Positions 10,158 through 63,931 of a DNA stretch of 64,000 nucleotides are shown piece after piece. Under the pieces are notes generated by a model. That model was not told the DNA's origin. It saw nothing but the letters and a program-made list of their open reading frames with translations, and ran no database searches. The position numbers were made by a program, and so were the translations under genes. This DNA is from Sphaerolaimus hirsutus (lineage: Eukaryota; Nematoda; Chromadorea; Monhysterida; Sphaerolaimidae), in assembly GCA_964036195.1 (NCBI GenBank), contig OZ038454.1, positions 2,976,001-3,040,000 on the forward strand, read 5' to 3'. Every line of letters starts with the position of its first letter. Positions within the stretch are counted from its first letter, which is position 1.

Positions 10158-13100
10158 CTCGTTTCCATCTCCCTTTTCTTGAGCAGTGTGACAATCTTCC
10201 AGGTGATTGCAAGTGCTACGAGCAGAAGCACAATTATGACCAGTAAGCCAGCTGCTATCACTGCGATTTGACATCCATTCAGTTTTGAGGTGGTGTAAAA
10301 CTACCACGCACACGCACACGCACACGCACACGCACACGCACACGCACACGCACACGCACACGCACACGCACACGCACACGCACACGCACACGCACACGCA
10401 CACGCACACGCACACGCACACTAGTTTTCAACTGAAATTTTGAAAACTCATAAATTTGCTTTTTACTCATTTCAGTTTGCTAGAATACTGATTTATAATC
10501 TCCATCTGTATTGTAAATAGTTAATGGACTCCTCACATTAAGCACACAACAAAGTTTGCAACCCTTTCTTGATTTCATTTTGGACACAATATCTCTGGCT
10601 ATGGGGGCTGGCTGGGTGGGTGGTATAAAAATGATACTTTGGTGGGTATATACCGTATTACCTCGAATTATTCCCCCCCTTGAAGTAACCCCCCTCGAAT
10701 TAACCCCCCCTCAAAATGGGCTGGGGAAATAATAAACCCCCCCTCGAAATACCCCCCCCCTTCGGAATGATGTACGTCATGTACATAATAAATACGTCAT
10801 GTATGCAATGTACATGATGTATATTACTGTTAATTTGCATTGCAGCTACACATAGACTAGTTTGTGTAGCTATCTACGTTTTTATGTCCAAATATATCCT
10901 GTTTGGACACATTTATTACCTGTTTTGGGTATGCAAATGCCTACTATTTACTATGATCCTTACAAAAATTTCTGACGAAATAATAACCCCCCCCCCCCTC
11001 GAATAAACCCCCCCTCGAATTAACCCCCCCCCCCCCCCCTCAAATTTTGTTGGCAAAAAAATAAACCCCCATGTGGGTATTTCGAGGTAATACGGTAGTC
11101 ATAACTTGGGGTGAATTTTAGGATGTCTAAATCAGGGTTTGTTTGAGTAAAATGCTTTTGTTAAAATTGTTTTTTATTTTAATTTTATTCATGTTTCATT
11201 TTATTTAATTTTATTCTCCAATTTTCCATTTTATTTTTTTCTGAGACTTTGCCAACCCTGGTCATAATGATATCTTTGTGCTTGTGGGAACAAAGATTGA
11301 CAAAATTTACACTTTAATTCTTTTTTTACATAACTTGAAAACTTGAATCATTCACTGCAAATCATTGTAAACCAGCAGATGTTGATTTATGAGTTTTTGA
11401 GACTCCAGTAGAAAACGGCACCAGAGAAACATCAGAGGTTTGCCTGTTCTGCGAAAGACGCGCGTACCTGCGAGCATGATGGACGTGGCACCCTGAGCTC
11501 GTTCCACCTGGGTCTCTGTGCTGGTGATTGGCTCAGTTGCACCTTTGCTTGTGGTGGCCACAACTGGGATTGGCAATGTCGGCGCTGCTGTGGGCTTCCC
11601 TGTGGCTGTGGTTGCAGCTGATGTGGATGATGTGGCACCTGGTGCCAGTTCCGCAAATTGAGAAGTGAAGTAAAATGGCAAATAAGAAGTGAATTGAGAA
11701 GAAAAATGGCAAGTAAATTGGCAAAAGAGAAGTAAAAAATAAAAAGTAATTTCCCTTCGCTTTTTCCAATTTCCATCACAATTCACTTCTCATTTCACTT
11801 CACATTTGCCATTTCACCTTTCACTTGTCAATTTGCGGAACTGGCCCCTGATGTTGATGTGGATGATGTGGAGCTGCGGCTTGTGGCGCTGGTTGAAGTG
11901 TTGCTTGCTTGGCTGCTCGATTTCCCAGTCGACGTTCTCCATGTTGGACAAGATCGTGGAGGATATGGTTCTGCAGTTGAATATAAATACCGCATTTCCT
12001 CAAAATAACTCCCCCACCCTCGAAATGAACTGACTCCCCTGTTTGAGTCTCCCCTAAGTTAATATGATCCATGCTGACAAGGACACTAATGAGGCATCTA
12101 GTTCCGAATGTCGTTAAGTCCATCATTTTGGGTTTTTTCAAAATTGCATTTGAAATTTCAAAGTTGGCCCGAGCAGGCAACTTTAAAGTGACACGTCTCG
12201 CCCAAAACTTTTTGAAAAGCTTATGAATTTGTCTACATTTTCCATATTTTAAACCCTCTGGCCGGAATATATACTCATAGTTATGATGAGTTTTTTGACA
12301 TCACCTCAGCAGATTCAGTGGAGATAACGAGTTTCGGGTGAAATTTCACTCGAATGTCGGTATATCCACTTCCTATTTATTACCTGTTCCACCTCATCAT
12401 ACCGTATCTATAAGGTGTTAAAATTCATATATTGATGCTGGCATACTACACAAAGGACTTGCTATGTATAGCATTAATGGTGGGGAAATTATGCCTTTTT
12501 CATGTAGTGGCTCCAAACGGCGCCATTTTTATGGAGTGGCGCCATGGACTCCAAAATGGCGCCATTTTTATGGAGTGGCGCCATGGACTCGGAAACAGCG
12601 CCATTTTTATGGAGTGGCGCCATGGACTCGGAAATAGCGCCATTTTTATGGAGTGGCGCCATTAGGGTGTCAACTTTCCGTTTTCCATTTTTCGTTTCCA
12701 CTTTCCGCAGGCAAATTTTTTTCCGTTTCCGTTTTCCGGCTGCAAATTTTTGTTCCTGTTTCCGTTTCCGTTTTTCCGGCTCATTTTCCGTTTTCCAGCA
12801 ATTTTTTTCAGTTATTCCGCCTTTTTCCGTTTTCCGGTTCAATTGTCTGTTTTTTTAATTTTTTTCCACTTTCCAGCTCAATTTTCCGTTTTCTGTGTCA
12901 GCCAAACTAATAAAAATGCATGCAGGTTCTCAATGAAGTGAATTTTTCCTATTTCTAGTGAGATTTCTGCAATTTTTTTTAATTCAGGATAAATTTCTGC
13001 AAATTTTTTTCCGTTTCCGGCAAAATTTCAGAAAATTTTTTCCGTTTCCGGCATAATTTCAGGAAATTTTCCTGTTTCCGTTTCCGTTTTCCGGCCTTCC

Positions 13101-15760: not shown

Positions 15761-15952
15761 GTGCCAGTGCCACGCCGTGTAAACTGTAAAGTCAAATAGT
15801 CAAATGTAATGCAAATGTATCATACAAATTTGTCAATTGTCATGCAAATTGACAAAAGTTCAGTAAAAATATTATCCTTGTCAAATAAAATTATAAAATT
15901 GACATTTTACATGACATTTGACACTTGACTTTACAGGGTGCGTGACTGCCCC
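15761..15952 (+). mobile_element. Introner-like element with CAG duplication
   Basis: Begins GTGCCAGTGCCACG and ends GTGCGTGACTGCCCC, flanked by CAG on both sides. Internal TIR-like GTAAAGTC / GACTTTACAG and a TCATGCAAATTGAC core are typical of this family. On the plus strand it would form a GT...CAG intron. A partner copy is in the right arm at about 35345-35540. The flanking sequence is short and I cannot show that it is coding. Confidence 0.5.
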
Positions 15953-16007
15953 CAGGTGCCTAGAACTATTCATGGGCAACTAATTCTATAACCCCCCTCG
16001 CAGTGGA

Positions 16008-17287
16008 ATGGGGCAGCGTGTCCAGACGCAGTGCAGAGTCTCAACTGGCCTGGTGCCACTCCCGGACCCTGTAAAATGTCCTGCACAATGTAAAATGCCA
16101 TGCAAAGCGCGAAAAGTCGTGTGAATGTGATGGAAATGTCTGATTTTATTTTTTACTTTTTTACATTTTGCAGGGCATCTTACATGACTTTTGACACTGC
16201 ATGACATTTGACATTTTTCAGGGCACTTTACAGGGTGCGGGAGTGGCTCAGGACCAAAGCGGTCATGTTCATAATCGATCGCATGCGCCAGGGCTACATC
16301 TCCGAGAGAAAACGGAGACTCTCCGCCGCCAGCTCGTCTAGTCACGGTTTGATTTGGATATTTTTGGAGGTTTTTTGGGGATTTTCAGTTGTTGTTGTTG
16401 TTGTTTTTGGGCGGGCGGAGACTTGCGAATGCAATGGAGTAGCCACAACTTTTACGACGTGATGAGTTTCTGGCATGCTGCCAGCTGTGTCTCTTATTGT
16501 TGGGAAGCTACCGTAAATGCTCTATTAGTACGGCCCCCCTCCAATAAACCGGCCCCTCCAATAGTGCGACCCCCTTGGGCACGTTGTGTTAAGTATAATG
16601 CGACTCTCTCCAATAATGCGACCCACCCCCCAATAATGCGACCCCCAAAGAAAAACAAAAACCGTACCGTTTACCGCAAAATAGAAGATTTATCGTACCG
16701 CACCATTTACCGCAAAATAGAAAATGTACCGTACTGCCCGGTTTACCGCATGGCCGTACCGTCTGCCACCCTAGTTCCACCCCTAAGCTCCGCCCACAAG
16801 CTCACCCCCGCAGACCCGGCCAGCTCGCTGCCGTCCACGTCGGCCAACTCGAACTCGTCCATGGCCAGCTCCTCCTCCCAGGGCGCCGGCCAATCAGCGT
16901 GCGCCTTGGCGCCGGTCGTGTTCCAGGGCAGGAGCGTCTCCCAGCAGCGCGCAGCCACCAAAGTGCACAAAGTGGAGAAACGAGTGAAAACTAGGGCACT
17001 TTCCGTCGAGAGGGCTGCTGGTGCCGACCCCTGACCCTGTGAAATGCCCTGTCAAATGTCAAATGTCATGGCAACTGAGTTGCCATTTTGCAGGGTATTT
17101 TACATGACTTTTGACACTTTGCATGACTTTTGACACTTTGCATGACTTTTGACATTTTACAGGGCATTTTACAGGGTGTGGGACTGCCCCCTTGTACGAG
17201 GAAAAATAGATCTGGTAGTGTGGATGATAAAACGTGTGATAAAGGTGGTGATCGACCAAATATTGTTATTGGCAGTGTTGATGATTC
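16008..17287 (+). CDS. Unrecognised gene in left arm, partial (about four exons seen)
   Basis: Exons by splice signals and frame: 16008-16052, 16252 to about 16346, 16814-17020, 17201-17287. The second encodes a basic helical stretch (TKAVMFIIDRMRQGYISERK), the third a Ser/Ala-rich then basic region (ATKVHKVEKRVKTRALSVER), the fourth an Asp/Gly-rich end closing at a GTGAGT donor. Introns 1 and 3 are GTGCC-type introner-like elements. I do not recognise a domain; the start and end of the gene are not seen. It converges on the end of KANSL3. A second copy in reverse lies at 32856-35291. Confidence 0.45.
16053..16250 (+). mobile_element. Introner-like element forming intron 1 of the left-arm gene
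   Basis: Begins GTGCCACTCCCGGACCCTG directly after exon ...CTGGCCTG and ends CAGGGTGCGGGAGTGGCTC, followed by AG and exon GACCAAAG. Reading continues in frame across it in phase 2. The right-arm copy is flanked CTG / CAG. Confidence 0.65.
17021..17190 (+). mobile_element. Introner-like element forming intron 3 of the left-arm gene
   Basis: Begins GTGCCGACCCCTGACCC immediately after GCTGCTG and ends GTGTGGGACTGCCCC. The nearest AG is ten bases further (17200), followed by GAAAAATAGATC, and the frame continues. In the right arm the same element (33134-32953) has a clean CCG / CCG flank. Confidence 0.7.
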
Positions 17288-19513: not shown

Positions 19514-19557
19514 CTAGAACTTTATCTGCATATTGCGGTGATGGTACAAATATGACG

Positions 19558-19757
19558 NNNNNNNNNNNNNNNNNNNNNNNNNNNNNNNNNNNNNNNNNNN
19601 NNNNNNNNNNNNNNNNNNNNNNNNNNNNNNNNNNNNNNNNNNNNNNNNNNNNNNNNNNNNNNNNNNNNNNNNNNNNNNNNNNNNNNNNNNNNNNNNNNNN
19701 NNNNNNNNNNNNNNNNNNNNNNNNNNNNNNNNNNNNNNNNNNNNNNNNNNNNNNNNN
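19558..19757. other. Assembly gap (200 N)
   Basis: A run of exactly 200 N, the usual size for a gap of unknown length. It coincides with the inner end of the left arm of the inverted duplication, so the true distance and junction there are unknown. Confidence 0.99.
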
Positions 19758-20091
19758 CAAAAACCACTCCAGATAGATAGATAGCTGAGCGATTTGGGGG
19801 GGTCTTTGGGGGTAGTAGCCAAAAAATGTGCCTCGGGATAGATAGATAGCTGATCGGCCTCCGGGATAGATAGATAGCTGGCGGATTTGGGGGGGACCCC
19901 CCCCCCCCCCCCAGCTCCCCCTAGGAGACCCCTGGCGCAATTTCAAAAGATGATAGAGAAGAGTGGATAAACGCTTCGATATTTCTCCCAAGTACAAATT
20001 TCACCAAAAAGCCTTTACACTAGACTTTCTATAAAATAAAACGACAGTTATGCAAACTATTCGAACGTAAAATCAAAGTAAATCTACGCAC

Positions 20092-23000
20092 CCAATATCG
20101 GCTGCCGTCGCACTACCGCCCGACTGCTCGTTGTGATCCTGTGTCAACTGCGCCTTCCTCAACATAACGGCCAGGGGCAGTCCCACATACTGTAAAATGC
20201 CCTGTAAAATGTCCAAAGTCATGCAAAGTGTCTAAAGTCATGTAAAATTCCCTGCCAAATGGGAACCGAGTCGTCATTTTGCAGGGCATTTTCCACGACT
20301 TTTGACACTTTGCATGACATTTGACATTTGACGGAGCATTTTCCAGGGTGCGGGACTGGCACCAGCATCTGCTGCACATTCTGCTGCGGCGGGTCGTGCC
20401 GCTGCGCCGCCGCGGTCGAACTCGACGCCACATTTGACTCTTTCTTCGCCGCGGCGGCAGGTCGCTTCGCAGTGGCGACCGTGGGCGCGGCACATTGCGG
20501 GGAATGGGTGATCACCCCCCTGGGTTTGGTCGACGCCGGGCGGGAGGGGTTGGAGGGCCTGCCGCTGTAAGCCATGTGCCGCGCGCAACCGTGCTGCGAG
20601 TGCGGCTGCGACCCCGGCGGCTGGTGGAATGGCCCCAACGTCTGCGAGGAGAAAAGACGCTAGGCATGCTGGGTGTCAACTGGTTTCAAATCAAAGTCAA
20701 CTCAGATTTTAGTTGACGGGTCGCAGTAAGGTGTCAATTTTTTTAATGGAAAACTGAAAAAAATTGGACATGCCGGAAAACTGAAATGAAGGAAAACGGA
20801 AAGCAGAATTTGCATGGAAACAGAACAATGCCAAAAAATTGTGATCTCACAGTGGGAGCGGGTCCGGACCAGGCAAATTTTCCGCCGTGGCCGGGGGTTG
20901 ACGTCGATTTTCCAGACTGGCTGGTGCTCGACTGTCGAGATCGACTGGCGCCTGACAAGTTTTCATGATTAAAACAGGGGCCTTAAACGTTAACTTAAAG
21001 GGGTTTTGTGTGATGACCGTGTTTGTTATTAACACCCGTCAGATAATAAAATAAAAAACAGTGTTTTAAATCAGTTATAGTCAGTGGGGAAGTTGTTCAC
21101 CATATAAGTGTCTAGAGACTGTACTTACAAAAGTTTCTGAAATACAATAAAAAATAATGCGCAAGTCTGTTTAAAAACAGGGGAGGAGGTAACAGGGGTT
21201 CAGTGAATTTGGAAAACTTTGGCTGATGATTTTAAAAAACGGTTTCGACGCCTGTGCGTTCTAAACATGTTTTTTAAAACAAAAAAACCGTTGAAAAACA
21301 CCAACCATCCCTAATACGAACCCACCTGGCAAGACGGGCGCGGCGGGACTTTGGGCAGGCAGAAGTCCCTGGCCCGTGGTTTCGGTGGCCGTGGCGATCA
21401 CCTGGTCGATGGAGTGGGCGATCGCGGACTCGCTGGTGCTGTCGGCGCGCGGCGCAACGCCCGTTTTGCTGGGCCACTTCCCGCTGCTCGACTGTCGACG
21501 CTGCACAGTGTATGCACTGGTTTGGCTACAATCCCGTAAGTTAAGAAGTAAATTACAAAACCCCCGGGTGTATCGATGGGTAAAGCCTATTACGCATGCA
21601 AGCCCGAAAGGCATATGGAGCCATTATGGACACATTTTATCCGCAAGGGTAAGGGTAACCCCACCCCAAACTGCCCAGCTATCGATCTATCACAGAGGCA
21701 AATTTTTTCGGCTACTTTCCCCTGAACACCCCCCCCCCATATATAGCCTAACTAAATATGTACCTAACCGGTACGCTTTTGAGCAATTTTACCCTACCTA
21801 CCAATCAAAATCGCTAATTTTCATACTTTTTATAGATTTTCACCTTCAAAATAACTATTGTTCATTTTCAGCATGCCCGGTAAAATAAAATGCGTCCCGG
21901 GTCAATATGCGTGATGGGTTTATGCGCAATACATGCGTAATGGCACAGGGCTGTATCGATAGACGCGAACCTTGGTGGGACCGGCTGGATTCATCCTAAC
22001 TGCAGCGTCGGGTTTCAGTCTCAAATCCGCCGTGACCGAGTGAATCCGATCGCTGGGTATGAACTGGTCGTTTTGCTCGCGCGGCGGCGCGAACGGCAGG
22101 AAAACGGAGCGGCGGGAATCGGTCACGCAGCGCAGAATGAAATCGACCACGTGGCTCTGAAAGTAAAATAAAATAAAATTGATAGCAAGGTTATGAAAGC
22201 GACGACAGCCATGGGAATCGATTGTATGTATATTTCAAATTCAAAACAAAATGATTTTTTTAAACAAATTGAGCTACTTCAATTGATCATTATTTTACAA
22301 TGACATTTCACTTGCAGTCAACAACTTACAACCACCCCAAAAAACTCTCAGCCCCAACCCCCCCCCCAACGCACCACGACCATCCTATCAACCCCCTTCT
22401 GAGTAATTTCCCTCTCTACCAATCGATGCGTGGCAACCCTCAACTGGGCGTCGGCTCCGCCCACCACGATCAATCCGCTGTCGGCTGGCAATCTGTCGCG
22501 GGTGTCCTGCAACTCGTCCACGTCGGTGGTGTTAGAGTGCTCGCCGATCACGAACACGGTGGGCGTGTTGGACTGGGACAGGCGGTCGTCGCACAGCTGG
22601 GAGAGGGGCGAGATAGGATTTTGACCTTTTTCAAAGTGTATAAATTTATAAAAAAAATTTTATGTGAAATTAGGTTTATAAATTTTGATTTCTTTTCTAA
22701 ATCATTTTAGAATCTGTCTATTTTTCCAAATAAACATTCGGTAGCCTTAATGTTATGCGAGGTCGAAGACATGTTCGCCCATTTTCGTTTATTTAGACAT
22801 GAAAAAATGCATGTGAATTTGAACTCAACGCCATTGGTGGAACTGACCCCGCGCGCGCCCTGCATGCACAGGTTCGAATGTGCGAATGAAATGCAGCCAG
22901 ACACGTGCACCTCGGCCGCCACCTGCATGCAAATCAGTTCTTTCCATCAATTAGGCGTACAATTATAAAAGACCACGGATAAGTGCATATTGGCCATAAA

Positions 23001-26000
23001 GCAACTTTATCGGGCCGAGAACTAAAGTTTCGCCGCGAAGTGATAAGTGAACACGTTTAGAGACTTCTCCTTTTACAGGTTTGCATTTTTGTTTTTGTCC
23101 AAATGCATTGTGTGGAAACGCCACTGTTCCCATGTATTTATGTTGAGATCATAGAAAATTTGACATTCAATAATCACTTTAGAATTCCAAAAGTGTAAGC
23201 GAGCGCGCCAATTGCACACGCATCACCAGCGGATAATTTGAAATGAAACCTAAAATGCCATTTTCTCGATATCGATTTTTTGGACTTATCAACTTCTATC
23301 ACCCAGGATCAAGTTCTTTTGGACTTAATTGGAATTTTTAGACACATCAGATAGATAAGGCAAATATTAGAAATACAATCGTAAAACCAACCATCATGTT
23401 GCAAAGTGCACTCACATCCCAGCCAACCAGGAAAATTTTCCGATCAGACACCTCTTTCTTCACCTGAAAAAAGTTTGAGCAAAAACATTTGAAATAGGAC
23501 ATGAAATTTCGCCCCCCCCCCTTCTCGGGTGAGACATGAAACAAGTTAGAAAAGTTAATTTTCCACATTAATTTGTAAATTTGTTTCTTCAAAAATTCAA
23601 TTAAACGAGCTTCGAACATAACGATTCTACGGTATTAGCACAGTAGCCGACGGGCAGCTCAGGTACCAATCCTAGACCCTGTCAAATTCCCTGTAAAATG
23701 TAAAATGGGATGTAAAGTGTCAAGAGTCATGTAAAGTGTCAAGAGTCATGTAAACGAGTTTGCCATTTTACAGGGCATTTCACATAAATATTTACACTTG
23801 CATGACATTTCACACTTTACAGGGCTGGGGACTAGCACCAGGAAAAGTCCCTTCCCCCACACAATTTGAGCGTACACTTTCACCCACCTGCACAACAAAC
23901 TCCTTGATGCCGAGCAGAAACGCAACGGTGATTTCTCTGATCGTGGAGCGATTGTGTATGGTCGCGTTGGTCAGACGGAATTCCTTGCATTCCGCCAGTT
24001 CAGATAGCAGACTGGAAATGTTGACAAATCGAGTAAAAAGTTACAATTCAACACTGGCGGATAATCGGGGTCAATTCTGCAAGTGGAGAAAAAAAACAAT
24101 CTTAGAAGGGAGAAGTGAAATGAGAAGAGAGAGGTGAAATGAGCAGAAAAAGGTTACTTCGCTTTTGACTTTTTACATATCATTTCACATTTCACTTCTC
24201 GTTTTACTTATGGTTTCACATTCCACTTCTCACTTCACTTTCCATTTTTTTACTTCTCTACTTGCGGAATTGGCACCAGATGAAGACACCTGTAGATGTA
24301 GTCGTGACATCGGAAAGAATTTTGATAGCCGGCCAGCATTGGAAGTGGCGGCACCAGAAGAAACAATATGGAACGCGGCAACTGCGAATGAAGTTCTTCC
24401 GTCCAATAACGGTCGTCCACACAATAGTTTACTACCGAAATTTAAAGAAGACTAAAAAACTAATAAATCAGAGCTGAGTAATGAGTCTACGAGATTGTTT
24501 AAAATTTGCTAGTGAACTAGTAAAATGTCAAATGACCGGTAAAAAATAAACTAAAATGTGACATTTTACAGGGCATTTTACATGATTTTTGACACTTTAC
24601 ATTTGTATAACATTTGACATTTTACAGGGTCTGGTGGCGACGCCTGATCATTTTGTTATGCTTGAATTGTTTTTTCCTACCTACACACACTAGTTCACTA
24701 GCAAGTGCCAAAAGTCATGTAAAATGCCCTGTAAAATTTCACATTTTATTTTTTACCAGTCAGTTGACATTTTACAGGGCCTGGGATTGACCCCAATTAG
24801 GTACGTACCTTCTTCTCTACGCTCATGGCTCCCTGCACGGCGGCGGGGTCCAGCGGCTTCCTGGCCAAGTAGCTGCCCAACTCGATCCTGACCTCTCTGG
24901 CCATCGCCTGGGCAAGAGAACCATTTGAGAAGTGACAAGTGAAATGAGAAGTAAAAGGAAAAGTGAAATGAAAAGTAAAAGGAGAAGTGAAATGAAAAGT
25001 AAAAGGAGAAGTAAAACGAGAAGTTTTAAATGTAAGCCATTTTAGAAATGAGAAGTTAAATAAAGGTCAAAAGTTTACTTCGCTTTTCACTTTTTTACTT
25101 TTCATTTCACTTCCCAATGCTCATCTTCTCACTTCTCACTTTTAATTTTACATTTCTTTCTACTTCTCCACTGGCGTAATTGGCACCTGGGGCTCCTTCC
25201 TGGGCACCAAGCAGTCGACCAGCGTGGCGCCATGGTTCACGTTCACGTTGGCGGCAGTGGCGCCAGCGCCAGCGGCATTGGCGCCCGTGGCGTTGGCGCC
25301 GATGGTGTCGCGCTCGTGGCGGCAGCTGAGCGCCCGCAACTGCTCCAGGTAGGTGGCCAGGCTGGCGATGGGCAGCTGCCGCAGCAGCGCCACGTGCAGC
25401 TTCTCCCCCGCTATGTAGTTCTGCGTTTTTGGAAGGATTGAGGATCTGTGTTTTGATAGTCTCTGGTTTGGAAGGATGCCAATTTTTGATGAAGATATTT
25501 AAAGTTTTTATTTTACTTTTGATAGTGATATTCTATATTTAATGTGCAAAAATTCACGATAAATTGAGATTTTCGTGTCCATTCGATTTGACGCGATATA
25601 AAACATACAAATTTCAAAATCGCACACACATTTCTTCACCAAATAGGATAAAAATGTATTTAAAAACGCACAAATGCTATAGGCGACAGGGCCACGCGAA
25701 TGCACTCAGCGTGTTCCATCAGAAGGTTGTAGTATAGGATGGCGTTCCTGGGGTGCTGCGGGGCAAATGTTTAATGCACACGTGCACGGTAAACATCAAA
25801 TTCGATTGTCAATTAATGGCACGGTGGAAATATTGCTGGATTGGGGCGTTCGTCAACTACAGTTGACGAGATTTAAAAAAAAATCATTCCAGTAAACTCA
25901 AATGCGTTCAAGGCTGATCTATGAGATTACTCAATGTTCAAAATTTCATTAATAAACCAGTATGTGTTGCGATTATGTAAAAAAATCTGTGAAAAAATTA

Positions 26001-29000
26001 CGTTTTCTACAGTCGCAAATGCCATCCTGGCGTTTTTTATGCTCGCCAGCACAGCGACCGCCAGCGACGCGACGATACTCGCCAATTTTGCGTCATCACT
26101 TTTCGCCACGTCTCGCGCCAAGCTGAAAACACTCAGCGCAATAAGATTGACGCAAAACAAGTGACGCAAAATTAAGTGACGCACTCGTGCACGAAATCCA
26201 GTTCGTTCCAGGAATCTTCGGAGCTATCAGACGGGATTTCCGGTTCGTTCAGCACCGAACTGTTACTTTTTCGCGCCATAAAAGAGCGCACCCTCTGCGC
26301 CATATTCAAAGCGGATTTCCAGCAGCCGCCATAACTGCGATGTTGCGTTATCACGAATTACAGAGTGTTACATAAAAAATTGTTTTAAACAAATACAGGG
26401 TTGTGGTTAGGGTTCAAACGGGATTGACTTTTCGGGATCGGGATTCACTTTTTGAGATTTCGGGTTCGGGATCGGAATCGGGATTGGGGTTTCGGGATCG
26501 GGATCGGGATTGGTATTTTGAGATTTCGGGATCGGGATCGGGATTGGCCGGGATTGCGGTCACGGGATCGGGACGGGATTGGCATTTTTTCGGGCGGGAT
26601 CGGGATTGGCATTTTTTCGGGATCGGGATTGGGGTCTAGGGATATAGATTTTAGTCACTGTTCTGGCATTCACAGTTGTTCATAAAGGTCTCAAAACACT
26701 GTTGGATGCCAGAAAAGTGACATAAAATGGACGCTGGGGGTTTGCGTTCACATTTTTGCATGCAAAAATGTCATCTTTTCACTTTTTGTTATTTTCACTA
26801 TTTTTTCCGGGATCGGGATCCCGGACTTGGGAGATTCTCGGGATCGGGATCGGGATTTGAAAGTTTTCGGGATCGGGATCGGTATTTTTGGATTTCGGGA
26901 TCGGGATCGGGATTGGGGTTTCGGGATCGGGACTGCTAAATCCCGGAATTTCACGGGATCCGGGATCGGGATCGGGATCCCGTTTGAACCCTAGTTGTGG
27001 TTGTCCCCCAATGTCCACCCAAATCGTTGATTTCTTTATTTATTTACCCATTTCACCTTCGAAATTGCTAATTCTAATGATGTATCGCCTATTTTTGGTT
27101 TTCTGGCATTTGCATGACTATTTTCAGCTGCTTTTCACGTTATTATTGCGTTTCATCCTTTTTCCATTCTATACATAGAAAAGGCCTATATTCAAACCAC
27201 CACAACGCCCCAAAAATTTTTCGCCCTCAAAGAAATTGTAAAAGTTTATACTTGAACCCTTTAAACCCGGCAGAAACATTTCCAGCTATCTATCCGGGGG
27301 AGGAGCGATTTACCACCAATCTGAACCCCCGCAGGGGTCTAAATCTACAACACCCCCGATACAACCCCTCAAACAGACTTACCGATGCGACCCAGAAACC
27401 ACATTCGATCGACTATTGGGCGCTTTTCTTTGTTGAGCATTATCATTCTCATGGTCGACCACATCAATTGAATCGCTGTCATCCGGATTTTCATCGCTCA
27501 GAGTTCGATTGAGGGATATTTTTTGCGCGCCGCCACCGGGTTGAAATGGCCGCAGGCTCGTGTAGCTGCAGTTGATGAATGGGGATGGGGTCAAAACGAT
27601 GTTTATGTCGAGAAGGGGTTCGGTATCTCTCCACGGGGCCGCTCAGATATTCCTTCTATCTATCTGTCCACAGGCAAGTTTTTTGGCTACTATCCTTCGA
27701 TCCCCCCCTAGGGTTCAAACGGGATTGACTTTTCGAGGTCAGGATCGGGATCGGGATTGGCCGGGATTGGGGTCACGGCATCGGGATTGGCATTTTTTCG
27801 GGATCGGGATTGGGGTCTTGGGATAGAGATTTTGGCCAATGTTTTGGCATCCACAGTTGTTCATTAAGGTCTAAAAACACTGTTGGATGCCAGAAACGTG
27901 GCATAAACTGAACGCTGGGGGTTTGCGTTCACATGCATGCAAAAACGTCGTTTTTTCACTTTTGATAATTTCCACTAATTTTTCCGGGATCGGGATCCCG
28001 GACTTTGGAGTTTCTCGGGATCGGGATTTGAAAAGTTTCGGGATCGGGACTGCTAAATCACGGAATATCACGGGATCCGGGATCCCGTTTGAACCCTACC
28101 CCCCCCCCCCCACAAAAAACAACAACAACAACAACACACACACCAGTTAGTTATCTATCTATCTATCTGCAGCGATTTTTGGGAAACTCTGTCTCAATTT
28201 TTGCTCAATATCGCTAATTTTCATCCCATTTATAATTTTTCACCCTCAAAAATGTTATCGTGATTTTACAGAGTTCAAAATCATTCTCCTTCGTTTGAAT
28301 TATTGCCTATTTTCAATATTTGGCCCACATTAGAAGAGAAGTCTGCACCTGGTGTTCATAGATTCTCAACATAAACATCGCCGTAACATCAAAATTGTGA
28401 ATGACGCCCAACGATTTGATTCATTTTTCAAAATAAAATTCGAAATAACCAACTTGGAAACGAAAATTTCACGATAGAACTGATCGGTTTCCACGGGCCA
28501 AGTGCAATCATCATATAAATTGGGATTCAAAGGTGTCAGCGTGTATTTCGGGCAAGATGCCAATCTTTGTTTAGCTCGTTGCACCACTTTTTTCTGTAAA
28601 TGAAAGTTGAAATTGGACGGCAGAAAAGCATAAAAAAATACATAAAGGACAAAAAAAAATGAGGAAACAATGCCGCACGGCACACTGGAAAGTAGCAATA
28701 TGAATTTGAACGCTTTTTTTAATGCATGTGCGTAACTTTTGGATAAAAAACCGTAATGGTTTCCGTAATCTAGATTTCTCACCTCCGAATTTTAGTCGCA
28801 CGTCCAAAAACCGTTCATACACAAAACACAAAAAGTATGTATGGTGCGCCAATTCCATCACACTTTAACCCCCCCCCCCCAAAAAAAAAAACAACGAAAA
28901 CAAACACCGACCGCCCGTTTCTCTTTGCCCCCATTGGACTTTCTATTTTCCTCCACTCTCCTTTTGATGGCTTTCTTCAGGCCGCCCGACGGCACCAGGT

Positions 29001-32855: not shown

Positions 32856-35291
32856 GCATCATCAACACTACCAATAACAATATTTGGTCGATCACCACCT
32901 TTATCAGACGTTTTATCATCCACACTATCAAATCTATTTTTCCTGATACCGGGGGGCAGTCCCACACCCTGTAAAATGCCCTGTAAAATGTCAAAAGTCA
33001 TGCAAAGTGTCAAAAGTCATGTCAAATGTCATGCAAAGTGTCAAAAGTCATGTAAAACACCCTGCAAAATGGCAACTCAGTTGCCATGACATTTGACATT
33101 TGACAGGGCATTTCACAGGGTCAGGGGTCGGCACCGGCAGCCCTCTCAACGGAAAGTGCCCTAGTTTTCACTCGTTTGTCCACTTTGTGCACTTTGGTGG
33201 CTGCGCGCTGCTGGGAGACGCTCCTGCCCTGGAACACGACCGGCGCCAAGGCGCACGCTGATTGGCCGGCGCCCTGGGAGGAGGAGCTGGCCATGGACGA
33301 GTTCGAGTTGGCCGACGTGGACGGCAGCGAGCTGGCCGGCTCTGCGGGGGGGAACTTGTGGGCGGAGCTTAGGGGTGGAACTAGGGTGGCAGACGGTACG
33401 GCCTTACGGTAAACCGTACGGTACGGTAAATTTGCTATTTTGCGGTTAATGGTGCGGTACGATAAATCTTCTATTTTGCGGTAAATGGTACGGTACGGTA
33501 AATTTTTAAAAGTGCGGTAAACGGTACGGTATGGTAAATTTTTCAAAAATGCGGTACGGTTTGGTACGGTAAATTCTGCCACCTTAGTTGGAACTTGTGA
33601 ACAATGTGTGGCGTCGGCGTGGCGCGCGCCCGTTTCTCTGATGTGCCGTATTTCCTCCAATAGTAGGCTAAAAAAGATTTTTTTATCTAAGTTTTAGCTT
33701 TCTTGAACGTGATCAGGGTTGGTTTTATAAAAATTCATTTTAGTAAAATTGTATAAAAATTGTAAAAAAATTTTATTTTATTTTAATTTTATTCTTGTTT
33801 CATTTTATTTTATTTTATTCCCAAAAGTCATTAATAAAATAAAATGACACATTTTACAAAATTTTTACAAAAATTGTACAAAAATTTTACAAAAAATCAG
33901 AATCATGCATGCAAGGCCAGAAAAATGTTATAATTAGACCTATACATGAAAAACCTGTGACAAATTTTTCCCTTACTTTTCAAAAGTTGCATGCAGTATG
34001 TATTGTTAGCTAGCTGCAAGTGTAAAGTTACAATTATTGATAAGAATGGTTTGCATTTTCAGTAGAAGGACTAGTGGAGTGTGCTGGGCACATTTATAAA
34101 ATGTGATGCAATTTGTCAATTGTCATGACAAATGTAAAGTAAAGTGTCTATTGTCATGCAAAATGTCAAGTGTCATGTCAAATGTCATGCAAAGTGTAAA
34201 TTGTGTATACAAATCTTGTGTTTTTGTATCCATAGTATGTATTGTATCCAAATCTTATGTTTTTGTATCCAAATGTTCACATAAGATTTGGATTCAACAA
34301 CAACATAATTTGGATACAAAACATAAGATTTAGATATCAAACATAAGATTTGGACACAATTTGCTTGACAACTGATACTTTATTTTTTACATGTCATGAC
34401 AATTTACACTTTACCTTACATTTGTCATGACAATTGACACTTTGCATGACATTTTACATGACATTTGACACTTTACACTTGGGACTGCTCCTATAACCAT
34501 GAATAAACAGGTAGAAACTCAAGCAACGAGATAACATTTTACAAAAAAAAATGAATTTTTATACAATTTTACAAAAATACGAATTTTTATAAAATTTTAC
34601 AAAAATTTTACAAAAATTCGAATTTTTATACAATTTTTATTTTTATTCTCAAATTTTCCATTTTATTTTATTTTATTTTATTCTTGAATATTCCATTTTA
34701 TTTTTATTTTATTTTTATTTTTTTCCTGAGATTTTGCCAACCCTGAACGCGATGAATTTAATAAGTAATAAGCTTCCCAACAACAAGAGGCACAGCTGGC
34801 AGCATGCCAGAACCTCATAGCGTTGTAGAAGTTGTGGCTACTCCATTCCACTCGCAAGTCTCCGCCCGCCCAAAACCAGCAACAACAACAACCACAAAAA
34901 CAACTCAAAATTCCCCCAAAAAACCTCCAAAACTTTCCAAATCAAACCGTGACTAGACGAGCTGGCTGCGGAGAGTCTCCGTTTTCTCTCGGAGATGTAG
35001 CCCTGGCGCATGCGGTCGATTATGAACATGACCGCTTTGGTCCTGGGCCACTCCCGCACCCTGTAAAATGCCCTGAAAATTGTCAAATGTCATGCACTGT
35101 CGAAAGTCCTGTAAAATGCCCTGCAAAATGTAAAAATGGTTAAAAGTGAAATTTGACATTCCCATCCCATTCACACGACTTTTCGCGCTTTGCATGACAT
35201 TTGACATTGTACAGGACATTTTACAGGGTCCGGGAGTGGCACCAGGCCAGTTGAGACTCTGCACTGCGTCTGGACACGCTGCCCCATTCCA
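32856..35291 (-). CDS. Second copy of the unrecognised left-arm gene, partial
   Basis: Mirror of 16008-17287: exons 35291-35243, about 35042-34950, about 33345-33135 and 32942-32856. The Ser/Ala-rich and basic regions are conserved (HKVDKRVKTRALSVER). Introns contain the same GTGCC-type elements, here with cleaner flanks (CCG / CCG around 32953-33134). Two hAT-like insertions (33382-33586 and 33714-34745) separate the exons. Function unknown. Confidence 0.45.
33382..33586. mobile_element. hAT-like GGTACGGTAAA element, near-8-bp duplication
   Basis: Begins TAGGGTGGCAGACGG and ends TTCTGCCACCTTA. Flanks GGTGGAAC and GTTGGAAC match at seven of eight positions. The interior is GGTACGGTAAATTT units. 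The left-arm counterpart (about 16650-16775) is altered by another insertion. Confidence 0.75.
33714..34745. mobile_element. hAT-like AT-rich element, near-8-bp duplication
   Basis: Begins CAGGGTTGG and ends TTGCCAACCCTG; flanks AACGTGAT and AACGCGAT. The interior holds TTTTATTTTA blocks at both ends and, near 34100-34480, a GTGTCAAATGTCATG / TTGACACTTTGCATG palindrome with an AAATCTTATGTTTTTG core. Present only in the right arm. Confidence 0.75.
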
Positions 35292-36089
35292 CTGCGAGGG
35301 GGGTTATAGAATTAGTTGCCCATGAATAGTTCTAGGCACCTGGGTGGGGGCAGTCACGCACCCTGTAAAGTCAAGTGTCAAATGTCATGTAAAATGTCAA
35401 TTATATAATTTTATTTTACAAGGAAAATATTGTTACTGAACTTTTGTCAATTTGCATGACAATTGACAAATTTGTATCATACATTTGCATTACATTGGAC
35501 TATTTGACATTACAGTTTACACGGTGTGGCACTGGCACCTGGTGTATGGATATATTGAGGTAAATAAACGCTCACTACGATGAAACACATTATGACCCAA
35601 ATTGCCGCGAGGAAAAAAAGCACAAAGGCGCCAAGGCTTTCGCCAAAAAAAGCGCCAAGCGCAACTGGCGCCATTCCATCACTAGTGGGTGTGCTAACCC
35701 ACAGTTACATATCAATTTTTCAATTTCCGCATAGTGTGAAATCACAATTCATCCACACACCAATATTTTAATCAGCCACTCGACCACAAGTCAACACCAG
35801 ATAAAATACTTGTCCAGAAAATTTTGGCGGCGGTGAACAATGCACAAAATGTGTTTTTTGAGGGCGTGTCTTTTCTGTGTCGTTGTGAGCTGGGCGGCCG
35901 ACGCGAAAGTCTGTAATAACGTTGTTCCAAGGGATTGGTGCGCAGATGGGAATTGTCCTAGAACAGAGTGAGTTCTGGCGCCAAATTGAATCAGGCACAC
36001 AGGCACAGCAAAAACAGTGCTGGTGATCTGCGGTGAAGTGTCTTCACGCAGACGTTCGCAGACACTTCAACACACTTCACAAATTTCTA

Positions 36090-41017: not shown

Positions 41018-44000
41018 TCACTCCTCAGCCATCACTTCATCATCTGAACTGTCTGTCAAGTTAATGTCGCTAACATCATTGCCTTCGCAAATTGAACATT
41101 TGAACCACCCAATCACTACTAGTTTTTTGTGCTCATCAATTTCATTTGTCGTTTCTCTCTCAACTACAAAAGATTTTCAAAAGTTTTTTGAATATTAAAG
41201 TTTCAAATATTTAAATAGTAGGCTAACTCTTATTCAAAGTTTCACATTGTCTCCCCCTAATTGTCCCCGCGTTTGTTGTGCATTGATGGCAAATTATCGT
41301 GCCATTTTCAACCTCCCTTTTGTGATCCTTTTTCCCTTTTTTACATTTTGCCAAAATGTATTTTATCGGTTCACACTCAGCTGAGTGACCTTCTGGGGAC
41401 AATCCCAAATCATGTAAAGTGTCCAGTAAAATGTCAAATGTCATGCAAAGTGTCAAAAGTCATGTAAAATGCATTGCAAATGGTAGATATGTAAAATGTC
41501 TATGAGACAGAAAAGTTTTTTATTTTACACTTGACATTTTACTGGACATTCTACAGGGTTTGGGAGTGGTACCAGAGTCCATTGAATCCTCATCAATGTC
41601 ACCCACCAACCGCCAAATGGGAAATTTGGAATTGTGCACAGTTTCACCCCCGTTTTTCAAAACAACTTTCACTTTCACCAATGTCCCGATGTTTTCATTA
41701 AAAAATTCGATTCTTTGTTGTAATTCTTGTAGTCTATCTTTTGACCACTTTTCCAGATTTTTGTGCTGAAATGTGAAAATATTTTTTGTCGTGAAATTTA
41801 CAAATATAAAAAAATCTACAACCTCAACCATCAAATGGTTTCTAACAGCCTCCATATCACACAACCTTTCCCCAGTGTACACTATCCCCATTATATCCTG
41901 CATGCTGATATCTTTGAGTTGGTTGATACTTTCAACCATTTTGGCTCGACATTTTTCAATCATGTCCGCTTTTAGATCGATGGCCAAGTACTCACCGCGA
42001 CAGAGTTGAATCGCAGTGAGGTCCTGAAATGTTAGGTTTCATTTCGGGGGCTTTAAAAAAGCCCCCTTTTAAAAATATGATACCAATTTATGGTATTTAT
42101 GTGTTCACCTTTGAGTATTTTTTGCGGTGCAACGCTGAGGTAGTTACTTTGAGTATTTTTTGAGTATTTACCTCGAAACACTTGGGGAAAAACAGCTATT
42201 TCAACTAATGACCTAATTTCTTGAAACACCAATTTTGCGGGTTCAAAGTTTACAACTATTTAAAGAAAATCGAACCTTTTTCCCAGCTTTTAAATTGTCC
42301 AATAGCATTCCAAAATTGCCGTATATTTTATTCAGGATTTTGAAAGAACTTCTCATTCGAGATTTCATGTTGTCAACTGGGCCACATTCACTAATGTCAC
42401 TTTCAGCCTCACTTTCTGTCTCATTTTCACTTTCCACATCAATATAATCTTCATCCCCCCTATCTGATTCTATTGCTCCACTTATCCAACTATTCATACT
42501 GACATCACTGTCTGTGTCACTTGAACTACTATCTGGTGAAGCTCCACCTGCCATTGTGTAATATAAATCACCTGAACCATCAGAGTAGAATATGAACGGC
42601 CCACCGTTGTAGGCTACAGAGCCAGTGTAAAATCTTTTTTCCCCTTTCTCAACATCTTCAGACATATTCGATTGAATTTTGTCAATTCTGAAATTTTCAC
42701 ACTTTTAAAAATGTAAAATTTCAAATGTATTGTTAAAAAACATACTCATTTGTCAAGCGTACTGTAGGCAGCACAAAAGCAGGTGGTGGGCTTTGAGAAG
42801 GTGAACTAGGCGCAACAAAACTCGACACCAGATCACTGAGTTATATATATATACTATAGCATATTCTTATCACAAATTTCAAAAAAATTCGCCAACACAC
42901 CAATTTTTTTCATTCCTTCCAGGAACCGGGGATTCTGGCACCGCAGCAGCCGAAAAATTTGTCGTGGCGGTTACTGAGCACTCTGGCACCACAACTGAAC
43001 ATTCTGACAGCACACCTGGGGGCGGTTCCAAATCCTGCAAAGTGTAAAGTGTCAAATACAAAGTTGAGTGTCATGTAAAATGTAAATCAAAACAAAAAAG
43101 AAAATATTTTATCACTGATATTCGCATGACAATTGACACTTTATTCTGCACTTGACACTTGACACTCTAAGGACTTGGGAGCGCAACCTGAACACTTTAC
43201 CACCTCACCGACCACACATTCCGGTGCCCCATACGCAGTAGCCACTTTTTTTGGAGTAGCACCAGCCTGACATTCAGCATCTGAACCCGCCAAACGTTTT
43301 GGCGCCCTCGCAGCAGTTGTCAATGTGATTGGAGGTGATGGCGGCGGTGTCAAAACGGATGTACCATCGTCACTGAGATGTTTATGTCATTATTTTATCT
43401 TTAGACAATTTTGTGATTATCAAACCCATATATATCATGTTTCATAAAATTTTGGCATTGGTAAATTGATCTTTGACTCTTTATACTCAGAAGTATTATA
43501 ATACTCAAAAATAATTATCTCAGTGGAAATGGATAGCTACCGGACCGGTAGCCAATTTTTGGAAAGGTGTTTTATAAAAAACACCTCAAAAAAACTTTGC
43601 ACATGTGAAATGTAAACAAAGATCTACATACTCCATTGCGTTGTCGCCATCTGCTGGACATAAGTTGTCGCCCCCATCCGCATGTGAATTGTCGCCATCA
43701 ACCGCATGTGAATTGTCGCCATCAGCTGCATGTGAATTGTCGTCATCAGCCGCATGTGAATTGTCGCCATCAGCCGCATGTGAATTGTCGCCAGAAGCCG
43801 CATGTGAATTGTCGCCGGAAGCTGCATGTGAATTGTCGCTAGAAGTCGCATGTGAATTGTCGCCAGGAGCCGCTAGTGAATTGTCGCCAGGAGCTGCATG
43901 TGAATTGTCGCACAGAGGCGGAGACGCCGCCGAATATCTGCATTGTATTTTTATGTACAAATTTGAAAAGCCTAAAGTTTTCCATTTTAAATTTATATAT

Positions 44001-54996: not shown

Positions 54997-55617
54997 TTAC
55001 AAAAAATTACTGGCTCTATGCCAAAGGCAATTTCCGTCGCAGGCTGCGGCAATTTTCTCGTCTTCATCCTTGAGATGGCAATGCGGTAGGGACATATCGA
55101 ATAGGGGGTGGCAGGCGTAGCCCACCAATTGCCAGGCCTTGACTATGGCCCTTCTACCATCGCAGGGGCCAATGTCACCGTTGCGGGGCCAGTCGTGATA
55201 GAGACCGTTTTCCAGATCATTAGCTCCAAGTAGCAAGTATTTTTCGTGCACGTGCAAGGCTGCCATGTGCTTGTTCTGTTCACACCCGGGCCACACATTG
55301 ATGATAGAATTCAGTTCTTGAGGTGAAGTAGCACCCATCAGGAAGGCATTTTGAAAAGGTCTCATGGCGTATTGCAGATGGAGGAACCGCTGCGCGAGCA
55401 GAAAACCCGCACGCCCCGCGTAAGGAGAGCGCTTGTGTCGCAATGCTTGAAAACATTCTATGTGAGTTGCCATGTTCATATCCCACAAATTTTTGAGACT
55501 CATGTTGAGAATATCTAGTTGTTCATTCACGACGATGTGTATTAGGTGCCTGACGCAGTCTAATTGACCGGGTTTGGTATCAGCTCGAAGATAAAAATCT
55601 CGGGGGTTGTTCAGCAT
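54997..55617 (-). CDS. Unrecognised Polinton-region protein (206 aa or longer)
   Basis: Open from ATG at 55617; the frame is also open upstream to an AG at about 55663 (CCATGCAG), so it may be the second exon of a spliced gene. Mixed alpha-helical composition with His and Cys near the C-terminus (CHLKDEDEK, CDGNCLWH). Ends 390 bases from the low-complexity left flank. No family recognised. Confidence 0.55.
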   Translation of the reverse strand: MLNNPRDFYLRADTKPGQLDCVRHLIHIVVNEQLDILNMSLKNLWDMNMATHIECFQALRHKRSPYAGRAGFLLAQRFLHLQYAMRPFQNAFLMGATSPQELNSIINVWPGCEQNKHMAALHVHEKYLLLGANDLENGLYHDWPRNGDIGPCDGRRAIVKAWQLVGYACHPLFDMSLPHCHLKDEDEKIAAACDGNCLWHRASNFL

Positions 55618-55751
55618 ATAAATTCTGCCTTTTCTATTGAACCAGAACTTTGGGAAAGTTCCTGCATGGCGGGGGAAAAATCACTTGTTGACTACTATTT
55701 TTGCTACTGTTATGTACTGTTATCACCCATCACCATGGTAGGGAGGGAAAA

Positions 55752-56291
55752 TCACTTGTAGTTGTTTATGTTGACTACTATATTGCCGTAGCGTCCGCTG
55801 GCGGCAGCATGTTTATCACTATTTCCACTGCCTTGCTGGGGGCAGCGTGGTTCTATGATACAAGTGTGATCACAAAATCCTTCTTCATCGTTACTATTAC
55901 CGGTGATATCACTCCAACGATAAATAATTCCCCATGGTTGCAGAATGTTGGTGGGTGTCGGTGACTCACTATTAATATTTTTCTTGACATTACACCCCAC
56001 GAGGTCTTCTCGGTCTTCGACCTCCATACCCTCTTGTTGATCATCCTCCGGCCCCTTGTTAACTAGCTTGAGATTTTCTGCTTGGTTCATTTTTTTGACT
56101 TTTTCCAAAAGTTTATCAATCACTGGTCCCTTAGTAAAACTGTCTTTTGTATTTTGGTGCTGGGGGTTGTTCGCCTGCGGCGGGGTCAGGGTATCTGGGT
56201 GGCGCACGCCCGTCATCGAAGCAGCCGTCTGTCGTTGTTGCTGAGTTGTTGCCTTCGGCTGTTCCTGTGGTCGGTCTGTGACGAATTGCAT
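55752..56291 (-). CDS. Unrecognised Gln/Asp-rich protein overlapping the upstream gene
   Basis: 179 codons from ATG at 56291. The N-terminal third is Gln/Thr/Pro-rich; the middle has a charged helical stretch (IDKLLEKVKKMNQAENLKL). It overlaps 161 bases of the 56131-56787 gene in another frame, and both frames look coding there. Splicing or frameshifting may join them; I cannot decide. Confidence 0.45.
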   Translation of the reverse strand: MQFVTDRPQEQPKATTQQQRQTAASMTGVRHPDTLTPPQANNPQHQNTKDSFTKGPVIDKLLEKVKKMNQAENLKLVNKGPEDDQQEGMEVEDREDLVGCNVKKNINSESPTPTNILQPWGIIYRWSDITGNSNDEEGFCDHTCIIEPRCPQQGSGNSDKHAAASGRYGNIVVNINNYK

Positions 56292-56787
56292 CGATCATTT
56301 TTTCATGTCTTATTCTGCACCCACGACATAATTTGACTTGCACTTCCACACTGTCGTCGCTATAAAGCTTTGACGGTAAATATTTGGTGCGTGTCTCGCA
56401 CATCCTACAAAGTGCAAACTGTAGGAACTTGTAAGAGAACATTGTGCAGAGGGGAAAGTTCATTTTTCTCCGCTTGTAGACAATTTCTCGGCGTTCGCGC
56501 CCATAAATTCCACCAAAACCACCGTCATTTTGCTTTTGTTTATCAATTAGCAAGTTTTGTTTTTCATCTAATCCATCACCTTGAGACGGGTCTTCTGGTA
56601 CCAGTAGTGGTGGTGGGTGTTGACTGTCCTGGTTGTCCTCCATAGCTCGCTCGATAGCGGCCTCGGCGGCTTTGTGGGTTGCTGAAGCCACTTTGGTGGC
56701 CAAGTGTGCTGCCATCGTGTTGTGTAAAAGTTGGTTGGTCGGTCGGAGAGTAGTTGCTTCGGGTTGCTTCGGGAGCTGGAATCGCAT
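56131..56787 (-). CDS. Unrecognised protein with a CxxC...CxxC motif (218 aa)
   Basis: ATG at 56787; TATAAAAAGG lies about 30 bases upstream on the minus strand. The N-terminal half is polar with a helical Ala-rich stretch (VASATHKAAEAAIERAME). Residues around 125-170 carry CRMC and CRGC 30 residues apart in a basic context, a plausible zinc ribbon. The C-terminus is Pro-rich. Divergent to the spliced dUTPase-like gene, sharing a 210-bp intergenic region. Confidence 0.55.
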   Translation of the reverse strand: MRFQLPKQPEATTLRPTNQLLHNTMAAHLATKVASATHKAAEAAIERAMEDNQDSQHPPPLLVPEDPSQGDGLDEKQNLLIDKQKQNDGGFGGIYGRERREIVYKRRKMNFPLCTMFSYKFLQFALCRMCETRTKYLPSKLYSDDSVEVQVKLCRGCRIRHEKMIDAIRHRPTTGTAEGNNSATTTDGCFDDGRAPPRYPDPAAGEQPPAPKYKRQFY

Positions 56788-56814
56788 ATGAAAGAGAATG
56801 GGAAAATTTTCTGC

Positions 56815-56826
56815 CTTTTTATACCG
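56815..56826 (-). promoter_or_regulatory. TATA box for the 56131-56787 gene
   Basis: Minus-strand TATAAAAAGG about 30-35 bases upstream of the ATG. Spacing is short but consistent with a compact viral-type promoter. Confidence 0.5.
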
Positions 56827-56946
56827 ATATCCTACCCAACATAAGAATTTTTTATGGGAATTTTTTTATTAGTCATTACCTTTTATGGAAAACTGTAAAA
56901 TTTATTAGTCATAAAGTATTATGACTAGTCATGAAATTGCCGGTGG

Positions 56947-56956
56947 GTATATTTAA
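56947..56956 (+). promoter_or_regulatory. TATA box for the spliced dUTPase-like gene
   Basis: GTATATTTAA about 45-50 bases upstream of the ATG at 57000, the only TATA-like site in the plus-strand leader. Confidence 0.5.
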
Positions 56957-56999
56957 TGGTGGTTAGTTGAGCCTAAAAATTTCATTTTGGAGCATCATC

Positions 57000-57964
57000 A
57001 TGGAAGGCAACAACCAAAAGCCACCAACCACCCACCCAGCCATATTTTTTGGTGAAAGACCCATGCAAATTGCATTTCAAAAAATCACGAGCAATGCCTT
57101 CTCCCCCAATTATCGGTATGATGATGTCGGGTTCAAGGTGTACTCAGCTTACGAGTACCACATACCACCAGGAGGGCGATGCTACATCATGTTGGACTTG
57201 CGCTTTCGAAACCCTTGGGGGGTGTATTTGAGGGTATCTAACCAGATGTGCTTGGCTTTGTTCTATGGTGTAATGGCCATTAATGGTGAGTTCACTAGTG
57301 ATAAGTTGAGTAGGTTGACGAGAGGTTGACTGAAACACCACTCATTGGGCAGATTTAATCGACACCGGTGGAAATTGCGGCATTTTATTGCTCAATACAT
57401 CGACGAGACCTTTCTTTGTATTTCGAGGAATGCACATAGCCAACATAGTGCTCGAGAAATACATGGTACCGAAAATGGTGGAATTACCTCCCGACGCCCC
57501 CCTCAAATCCAGCTTCTGCATGAACGGGGAGCGGGAATTTCATGATTTCCTCACGCGGATGGATTTTGCGAGTGGAAAAAACCCCATCCCCTCAACTAAT
57601 GGTAAGTAAGTCTGTAGGACATGAAAAAACATTACCCATCTCAACTTTTTACTATTACTACGATATAGTGAATGACGACACTGAGATCTTGGAAGATGAA
57701 GATTACCGATACAAAGAAATATGGGGCAGTTCCTGGTACACACCTAAATGCCCCTCGACATTCTGTGATATGAAATCATTCAAGAAATGGCCTGCATACC
57801 AACAGTTTTGCCTTCCACTGGAGCCCACGTTGGAGAATTGCGAAAGCGACCCGGATATCAACAGGATGAAACGTCAAGCCAAACGAAACATTTACTTGTC
57901 CTGGGACAAGCCGTTCATGACGAGTGATGAGAAGAGTTTATCCGAATGGAAACGAATTGATTAA
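57000..57964 (+). CDS. Spliced gene with dUTPase-like domain (276 aa, three exons)
   Basis: Exons 57000-57285, 57353-57601 and 57669-57964 join in one frame (831 nt with stop). Both introns are 67 nt, phase 1, with GTGAGT...GCAG and GTAAGT...ATAG. The start is ATG at 57000 in a good context (CATCATGGA). Residues about 40-150 follow the trimeric dUTPase fold: DDVGFKVYSAYEYHIPPG (motif 1), then NPWGVYLRVSN...LAL where motif 2 (PRSGLA) belongs, then LIDTGGNCGILLLN (motif 3) and FRGMHIANIVLEKY (motif 4). The Ser of motif 2 and the YRG of motif 3 are not conserved and the Gly-rich motif 5 is missing. A 110-residue acidic, Trp-containing tail has no known match. Catalysis is therefore doubtful; a structural or regulatory use of the fold is possible. 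Confidence 0.7.
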
Positions 57965-57968
57965 TTGA

Positions 57969-58493: not shown

Positions 58494-58534
58494 ATCTCTC
58501 CCCTTTCACAAATACCACGCCTGCTCACCACTGA

Positions 58535-59977: not shown

Positions 59978-60021
59978 TTTGAGAAATTATTCAATCTGAA
60001 TTGAATACCTTCTTTGGTTAC

Positions 60022-60037
60022 CTTTATATATATATAG
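60022..60037 (-). promoter_or_regulatory. TATA box for the major capsid gene
   Basis: Minus-strand TATATATATAAAGG, about 45-60 bases upstream of the capsid ATG at 59977 and just downstream of the core-like gene's stop, so it would act as an internal promoter of the structural block. Confidence 0.5.
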
Positions 60038-60054
60038 GGTGAAGGGTTCACCAA

Positions 60055-60504: not shown

Positions 60505-60507
60505 AAT

Positions 60508-62912: not shown

Positions 62913-62940
62913 TTTAGCAGTTCCCCACACCCGGTATTAA

Positions 62941-63930: not shown

Positions 63931-63931
63931 A

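Follow-up and report, generated by a model that had tools for sequence, protein, structure and literature searches.

How does a coding gene come to carry an intron whose edges coincide with those of a transposon-like repeat? This question is raised by a gene on the minus strand of the window, i.e., the whole 64,000-nt stretch of the Sphaerolaimus hirsutus genome analyzed here, in which a short element lies between two exons of a putative KANSL3. The first-pass annotation had described this locus as CCCCAG, GTGCC...TTGCC, CAG, and GCGATGG in succession, and this string was found as described, on the minus strand and with flanks that are in-frame neighboring exons. Very probably, the intron is an insertion of a non-autonomous MITE-like element of the type herein referred to as F1, and hence an introner.

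Layout of the KANSL3 Intron

On the minus strand, the upstream exon ends in CCCCAG (at 25187) and is followed by GTGCCAATTACGCCAGTGGAGAAG at the left end of the element, by TTCTCTTGCC at its right end (ending at 24911), by a second CAG (24910-24908), and by GCGATGG from 24907. The putative intron spans 25186-24908 (279 nt, phase 0, PRKEPQ|AMAREV); in the unspliced frame, a stop is reached after VPITPVEK. The features of this part of the gene are as follows:

25187..25420, minus strand: upstream KANSL3 exon, NYIAGEKLH...PRKEPQ, with the end ...CCCCAG (open frame)
25187..25189, minus strand: first CAG, last codon of the exon, putative copy 1 of the target duplication (layout and CWG rule)
24911..25186, minus strand: F1 element, 276 bp, with first bases GTGCC (putative 5' splice site) and last bases ...TTGCC
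25163..25186, minus strand: left terminal inverted repeat (window pattern search and genome-wide termini)
24937..25024, no strand: 12/24-bp tandem array of the interior; inverted copies lie at, e.g., 25093-25123
24911..24934, minus strand: right end, which retains the inner repeat (CACTTCTCAAATGGTTC) but has lost about 22 nt of the outer one, with a pyrimidine-rich tract before CAG
24908..24910, minus strand: second CAG, putative 3' splice site, read as the target duplication (layout; intact-ended parallels at L006/L008 and L058)
24809..24907, minus strand: KANSL3 exon downstream, AMAREV...SVEKK, followed by the donor GTACGT
24068..24276, minus strand: second F1 copy, away from the exon edge, lying 13 bp within a different intron of KANSL3 whose likely donor is CAG|GTGTCT

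The interior of the element is a GAGAAGTGAAATG-type 12/24-bp array with inverted copies, in agreement with the inverted-repeat interior noted earlier. By folding prediction, the element as RNA forms one long hairpin (z -7.2), with an equally good fold in 0 of 200 shuffles. The right end aligns to the inner repeat of the family (scores of 29 and 33 against the ends of L006, with shuffle maxima of 16.5 and 17), and this alignment stops 3 nt before the CAG, the outer repeat being short by about 22 nt. Thus, similarity to the family reaches the splice boundary on the left only. The left junction fits the earlier claim that the intron is exactly a transposon plus its CAG duplication, but "exactly" is too strong because the right outer repeat is missing. 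Since the intron is also common to all five gene copies, an exact transposon-plus-duplication structure can only be inferred for the KANSL3 copy; the right-hand CAG is consistent with a target duplication and probably represents one.

Alternatively, the element may have inserted at the 5' splice site of an intron already present in KANSL3, the rest of that intron being lost later, so that the pyrimidine-rich AAATGGTTCTCTTGCCCAG would be the end of the old intron. The incomplete right end agrees with such a course, as do the presence of the intron in all five KANSL3 copies found and the position of the second F1 copy, 13 bp inside an ordinary intron. We nevertheless consider it unlikely: the exon directly abuts the first base of the element in the family context CAG|GTGCC, the right end still aligns to the inner family repeat up to 3 nt before the CAG, and flush copies with intact ends are found in other genes. 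The second F1 copy was also considered as a flush intron and rejected; the phases need the donor CAG|GTGTCT (hand reading).

Identity of the Gene and Its Copies

The assignment of the gene to KANSL3 is suggested by several partial lines of sequence evidence. The Pfam profile KANSL3_1st matched the gene below the cut-off (19.4 bits against a cut-off of 23, E 0.00094). With the human KANSL3 protein as the query, positions 22590-22378 were found at E 7e-9 and the exon before the intron only at E 2.7. Exons joined by hand into a model were aligned to the same protein with a score of 261 (shuffle maximum 94); with the two exons beside the intron alone, only the upstream exon was aligned (70; maximum of 61 in 1000 shuffles). 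Consequently, the description of the exons as consecutive parts of a conserved protein is supported by the whole model and the frame, but of the two flanking exons themselves only the upstream one could be aligned. No homologues of the hand-joined protein were found at E 0.001 among 7992 scored, and no match to solved structures was found at E 1.

In total, five copies of the KANSL3 region were found in the 348-Mb assembly (the window, L002, L003, L004, and L005). The intron is common to all of them, and no empty site was found among the five. Over the 333 nt of the two flanking exons, the window differs from each of the other four by at most 9 positions, and no pair of copies is separated by more than 7 synonymous and 4 nonsynonymous changes. 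The element measures 276, 277, 315, 315, and 413 bp in the five copies, and the joined frame across the intron is open in all of them (5/5).

Additionally, the KANSL3 paralogues L032 (C6:3067001-3077000; near window position 24409) and L031 (near window position 22947) differ by whole insertions: one is rich in GGGATC, measures about 450 bp, and lies beside repeated CTAGTGTGGAGT; the other is a 400-bp stretch with inverted ends. Other mobile families therefore seem to have moved after the gene duplication.

A Family of Elements with Common Ends and Target

The terminus GTGCCANTYCCGC has 3577 exact matches genome-wide (1804 + 1773), against 61 (30 + 31) for the reversed-pattern control. The three nucleotides before it are CAG in 1294 cases (control 2) and CTG in 1377 cases (control 0), together 75% vs. 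about 3% expected. Among 47 pairs of ends preselected for identical flanking 3-mers, some of them from overlapping or paralogous loci, 44 are flanked by CAG/CTG and 3 by ATG/CAT. A recount of 43 distinct strict-end pairs made without this preselection gave identical flanking 3-mers in 23 (21 CAG/CTG and 2 ATG/CAT); 37/43 combine a GT end with a GG end. In the window, a 23-nt pattern derived from two left ends has 5 matches at up to 3 mismatches, the two source ends included, vs. 0 expected. A genome search with the KANSL3 element gave 113 matches, many of them to the repetitive interior only.

Two interior types share these ends: F1 (interior as in KANSL3) and F2 (CCCTGTAAAATG and TGTCAAAAGTCATG). 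Besides the KANSL3 copies listed above, the window contains the following elements:

11642..11847, plus strand: F1 element, with both ends and the CTG duplication intact
20175..20362, minus strand: F2 element, with ends as in F1, in a second putative KANSL3 coding exon after CTG, with the join QQNVQQML^AVMLRKAQ (paralogue L031)
41396..41572, minus strand: F2 element in a multi-copy gene (...EDSMDS^EGHSAECEP...), flanked by CTG (left) and CAG (right); empty sites in paralogues

The elements are short, with inverted ends, a target duplication, many copies, and, as judged by length, no coding capacity. By sequence, the set is therefore MITE-like, with a 3-bp CWG target duplication. Worn and fresh copies lie side by side among the thousands of element ends, which have one terminus and one target rule in common. 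The element pattern has 0 matches in viral contigs.

A transposase is presumed to mobilize the elements. Matches to DDE_Tnp_4 (Harbinger-type) were found at 163 places in the genome; most of the matches listed have in-frame TGA codons inside, as though interrupted by an intron. On C1, 1 of the 15 matches listed lies within 5 kb of a listed terminus, which is not above chance (counted by eye, with two of the three lists of termini reaching to 28.45 Mb and 10.04 Mb). No transposase with these ends was found among the DDE_Tnp_4 matches listed. A PIF/Harbinger origin, suggested by the 3-bp duplication, is only a lead.

A spread through RNA, i.e., reverse splicing of the spliced intron, a route suggested for introner-like elements of fungi, would account for the coincidence of elements with introns. 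Nevertheless, it is scarcely credible here, given the 3-bp target duplications and inverted ends, the nearly equal frequency of CAG and CTG targets, and the finding of copies with these ends in AT-rich surroundings.

Flush Copies in Other Genes

Similarity reaching both putative splice boundaries, from CAG|GTGCC to the CAG acceptor, was found at L006/L008, L034/L035, L058, L083, and L094, with the introns predicted from the reading frame. At L006/L008, two paralogues are interrupted within FFPSEP^GAGQNG by an F1 copy with intact ends (408 and 403 bp, CAG...CAG). Three more CAG-flanked elements beginning with GTGCC lie further downstream in this gene (L034/L035), giving four in all. Once these three are taken out, 252 codons are open in both paralogues. 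The search used at L034/L035 required CAG, so the exclusively CAG flanks are partly due to selection; without this requirement, two further copies were found nearby (L034 2271 and L006 2310), with CTG or CAT on that strand and outside the frame.

The paralogues differ by 6 synonymous and 3 nonsynonymous substitutions in the 252 codons and by 3 and 1, respectively, at the first site (L006/L008). Pooled, 9/13 substitutions are synonymous (P of about 0.001 against 25%). These counts bear on the possibility that the insertions lie unspliced in pseudogenes or dead alleles. Several of the genes are indeed multi-copy, and the open-frame test described below is uninformative on this point; on the other hand, the exons on both sides are still conserved after insertion, in KANSL3 as well as in L034/L035, and the joined frame is open in 5/5 KANSL3 copies, which makes this explanation very improbable.

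Domain contexts were recognized at L058 and L083. The L058 copy (C1:3154286-3154562; 277 bp, F1, both ends intact, CAG...CAG) interrupts a granulin domain, and the unspliced frame stops; the joined sequence matches granulin PF00396 at E 1.2e-11, with 38 residues aligned to 38 profile positions and the junction spanned. The 189-bp L083 copy (C1:11049485-11049673), the right end of which has 2 mismatches, lies in a gene for a FANCJ-like helicase. Residues 2-63 of its join align without gaps to residues 653-714 of human FANCJ (E 9.7e-6), with the junction at residue 22/23; the match to Pfam Helicase_C_2 is just below the cut-off and covers the 3' side only.

Further copies lie in open frames with no recognized domain (L009, L015, L052, L062, L087, and L094), and as introner cases they have weaker evidence. 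No Pfam match above the cut-off was found for the joined peptides of L009, L015, L034, L036, L006, L052, L094, L087, L081, L074, L054, L062, L061, L049, and L072 or for that of the window copy at 51805; the L062 peptide also had no match among solved structures. L050, with a WH2 motif just below the cut-off, was not counted because, read by hand, the element is apparently preceded immediately by an ordinary donor.

Empty Sites and Copies That Fit Poorly

A genome search with 14 joined junctions, judged from coordinates and equal query and subject lengths, gave uninterrupted matches for 2/14, both of the F2 type. No empty site was found for the other 12/14, every F1 junction and that of KANSL3 included. 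The gene at window position 41572 appears empty in five places (71-74% identity over 118 or 115 bases, the same in query and subject), C13:23756977-23757094 among them, and is split by 153-220 bp in seven others, the window included. The second empty site, that of L015, lies at C4:4849051-4849146 (96/96 bases, 82%); in that paralogue, a separate interruption of about 330 bp follows after some 30 nt, so it is no plain intronless copy. Loss of an intron in the empty-site paralogues, instead of gain in the others, is still conceivable.

The C1 sample comprised 49 distinct CAG sites (50, with 1 duplicate dropped), and 20/49 have a CAG-flanked partner within 720 bp. At least 25 codons are open on both sides in 7/20 true joins, compared with 7/20 and 8/20 frame-shifted joins and 10/20 joins on the opposite strand. 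Open-frame length was therefore dropped as a population test, the true joins being no better than the controls. Domain-level support was found for 2/49 sites (L058 and L083).

Several copies lie in open frames without the GT...AG layout, both elsewhere (L036 9101, L028 1431, L022 1448, and L015 833) and in the window (11642, 47011, and 51805). The copy at 41572 has mismatched flanks, CTG on the left vs. CAG on the right. A further reading, which we regard as rather doubtful, is that F2 elements carry nested splice sites, i.e., the outer GTGCC/CAG and an inner inverted-repeat pair (CCCT|GTAAAA and TTTTACAG|GG). If so, introns could be made even from a CTG target or with the GG end upstream. By hand, two copies were fitted to this scheme: window 20362, by the outer donor and inner acceptor with the frame kept, and L036 9101, by an inner donor 18 nt in and the outer acceptor. 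No in-frame fit was found for the KANSL3 paralogue L031 or for window 47011.

Proposed Origin of the Intron

Under the introner reading, an F1 element would have inserted into a CAG in the KANSL3 coding sequence and copied this 3-bp target of the CWG class. The GTGCC at the start of the element would serve as the 5' splice site and the downstream copy of CAG as the 3' splice site, so that splicing would leave one CAG and no scar. Splicing of the elements in general is likewise predicted from the junctions and frames. As most pairs combine a GT end with a GG end, an insertion should be scarless only if the coding strand has the CAG and the element lies with its GT end upstream. The insertion would be older than the local duplication of KANSL3; later, the right outer repeat may have been lost and a pyrimidine-rich acceptor tract have taken its place, while the exons were conserved. 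The introner interpretation proposed by the first-pass annotation is supported by the family as a whole (CWG duplications, exact in-frame interruptions, and 2/14 empty sites), but the right end of the KANSL3 copy is incomplete. The granulin intron (L058) has the look of a fresh stage, and the KANSL3 intron that of an older one.

Relation to Known Introners

Introner elements of the algae Micromonas and Aureococcus, reported by Huff et al. in 2016, are said to be MITE-like DNA elements, one of whose splice sites comes from the target duplication; by description, these algal elements resemble the present ones. The mechanism is already published for other introners. According to the main text of Gozashti et al. 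(2022; PMC9860276), introners are short non-autonomous elements that turn into introns, and many of them have TIRs and/or TSDs; 548 families are catalogued there, and among animals introners are reported in only two groups, with copepods named. The present elements are like them in being short and non-autonomous, with inverted ends and target duplications. The example in Figure 2C of that paper has 4-bp TSDs and no TIRs, in contrast to the 3-bp duplication and inverted ends found here, and its main text makes no mention of the GTGCCANTYCCG end or the CWG target. In the passages of PMC12595863 concerned with them, Tourist-like MITEs of PIF/Harbinger are short, with inverted ends and a 3-letter target; the present elements share these traits, but the target is CWG rather than TWA. 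No published name for the element was recognized in the open-access literature searched. Set by description beside the families in the main text of PMC9860276, it looks like a new introner in an animal. A comparison of paralogues that carry the insertion with those that lack it would allow intron birth to be followed stepwise in an animal, together with the later erosion of transposon ends to ordinary splice sites.

Other Features of the Window

A run of long open frames was found at 54997-63957 (minus strand), which we take to look like a Maverick/Polinton-type element. One of the frames matches the integrase core PF00665 below the cut-off (E 4e-5), and no such match was found in four further frames. 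An assembly gap or a withheld stretch is marked at about 19556-19776 by a run of N, of which the window has 200. The segments at about 15761-17034 and 33121-35538 are inverted near-duplicates, with two F2-type ends and a similar long frame ending in ERAAGADP. Finally, two related repeats of GGGATCGGGAT-like units, bounded by GGGTTCAAACGGGAT, were found at 26400-28100.
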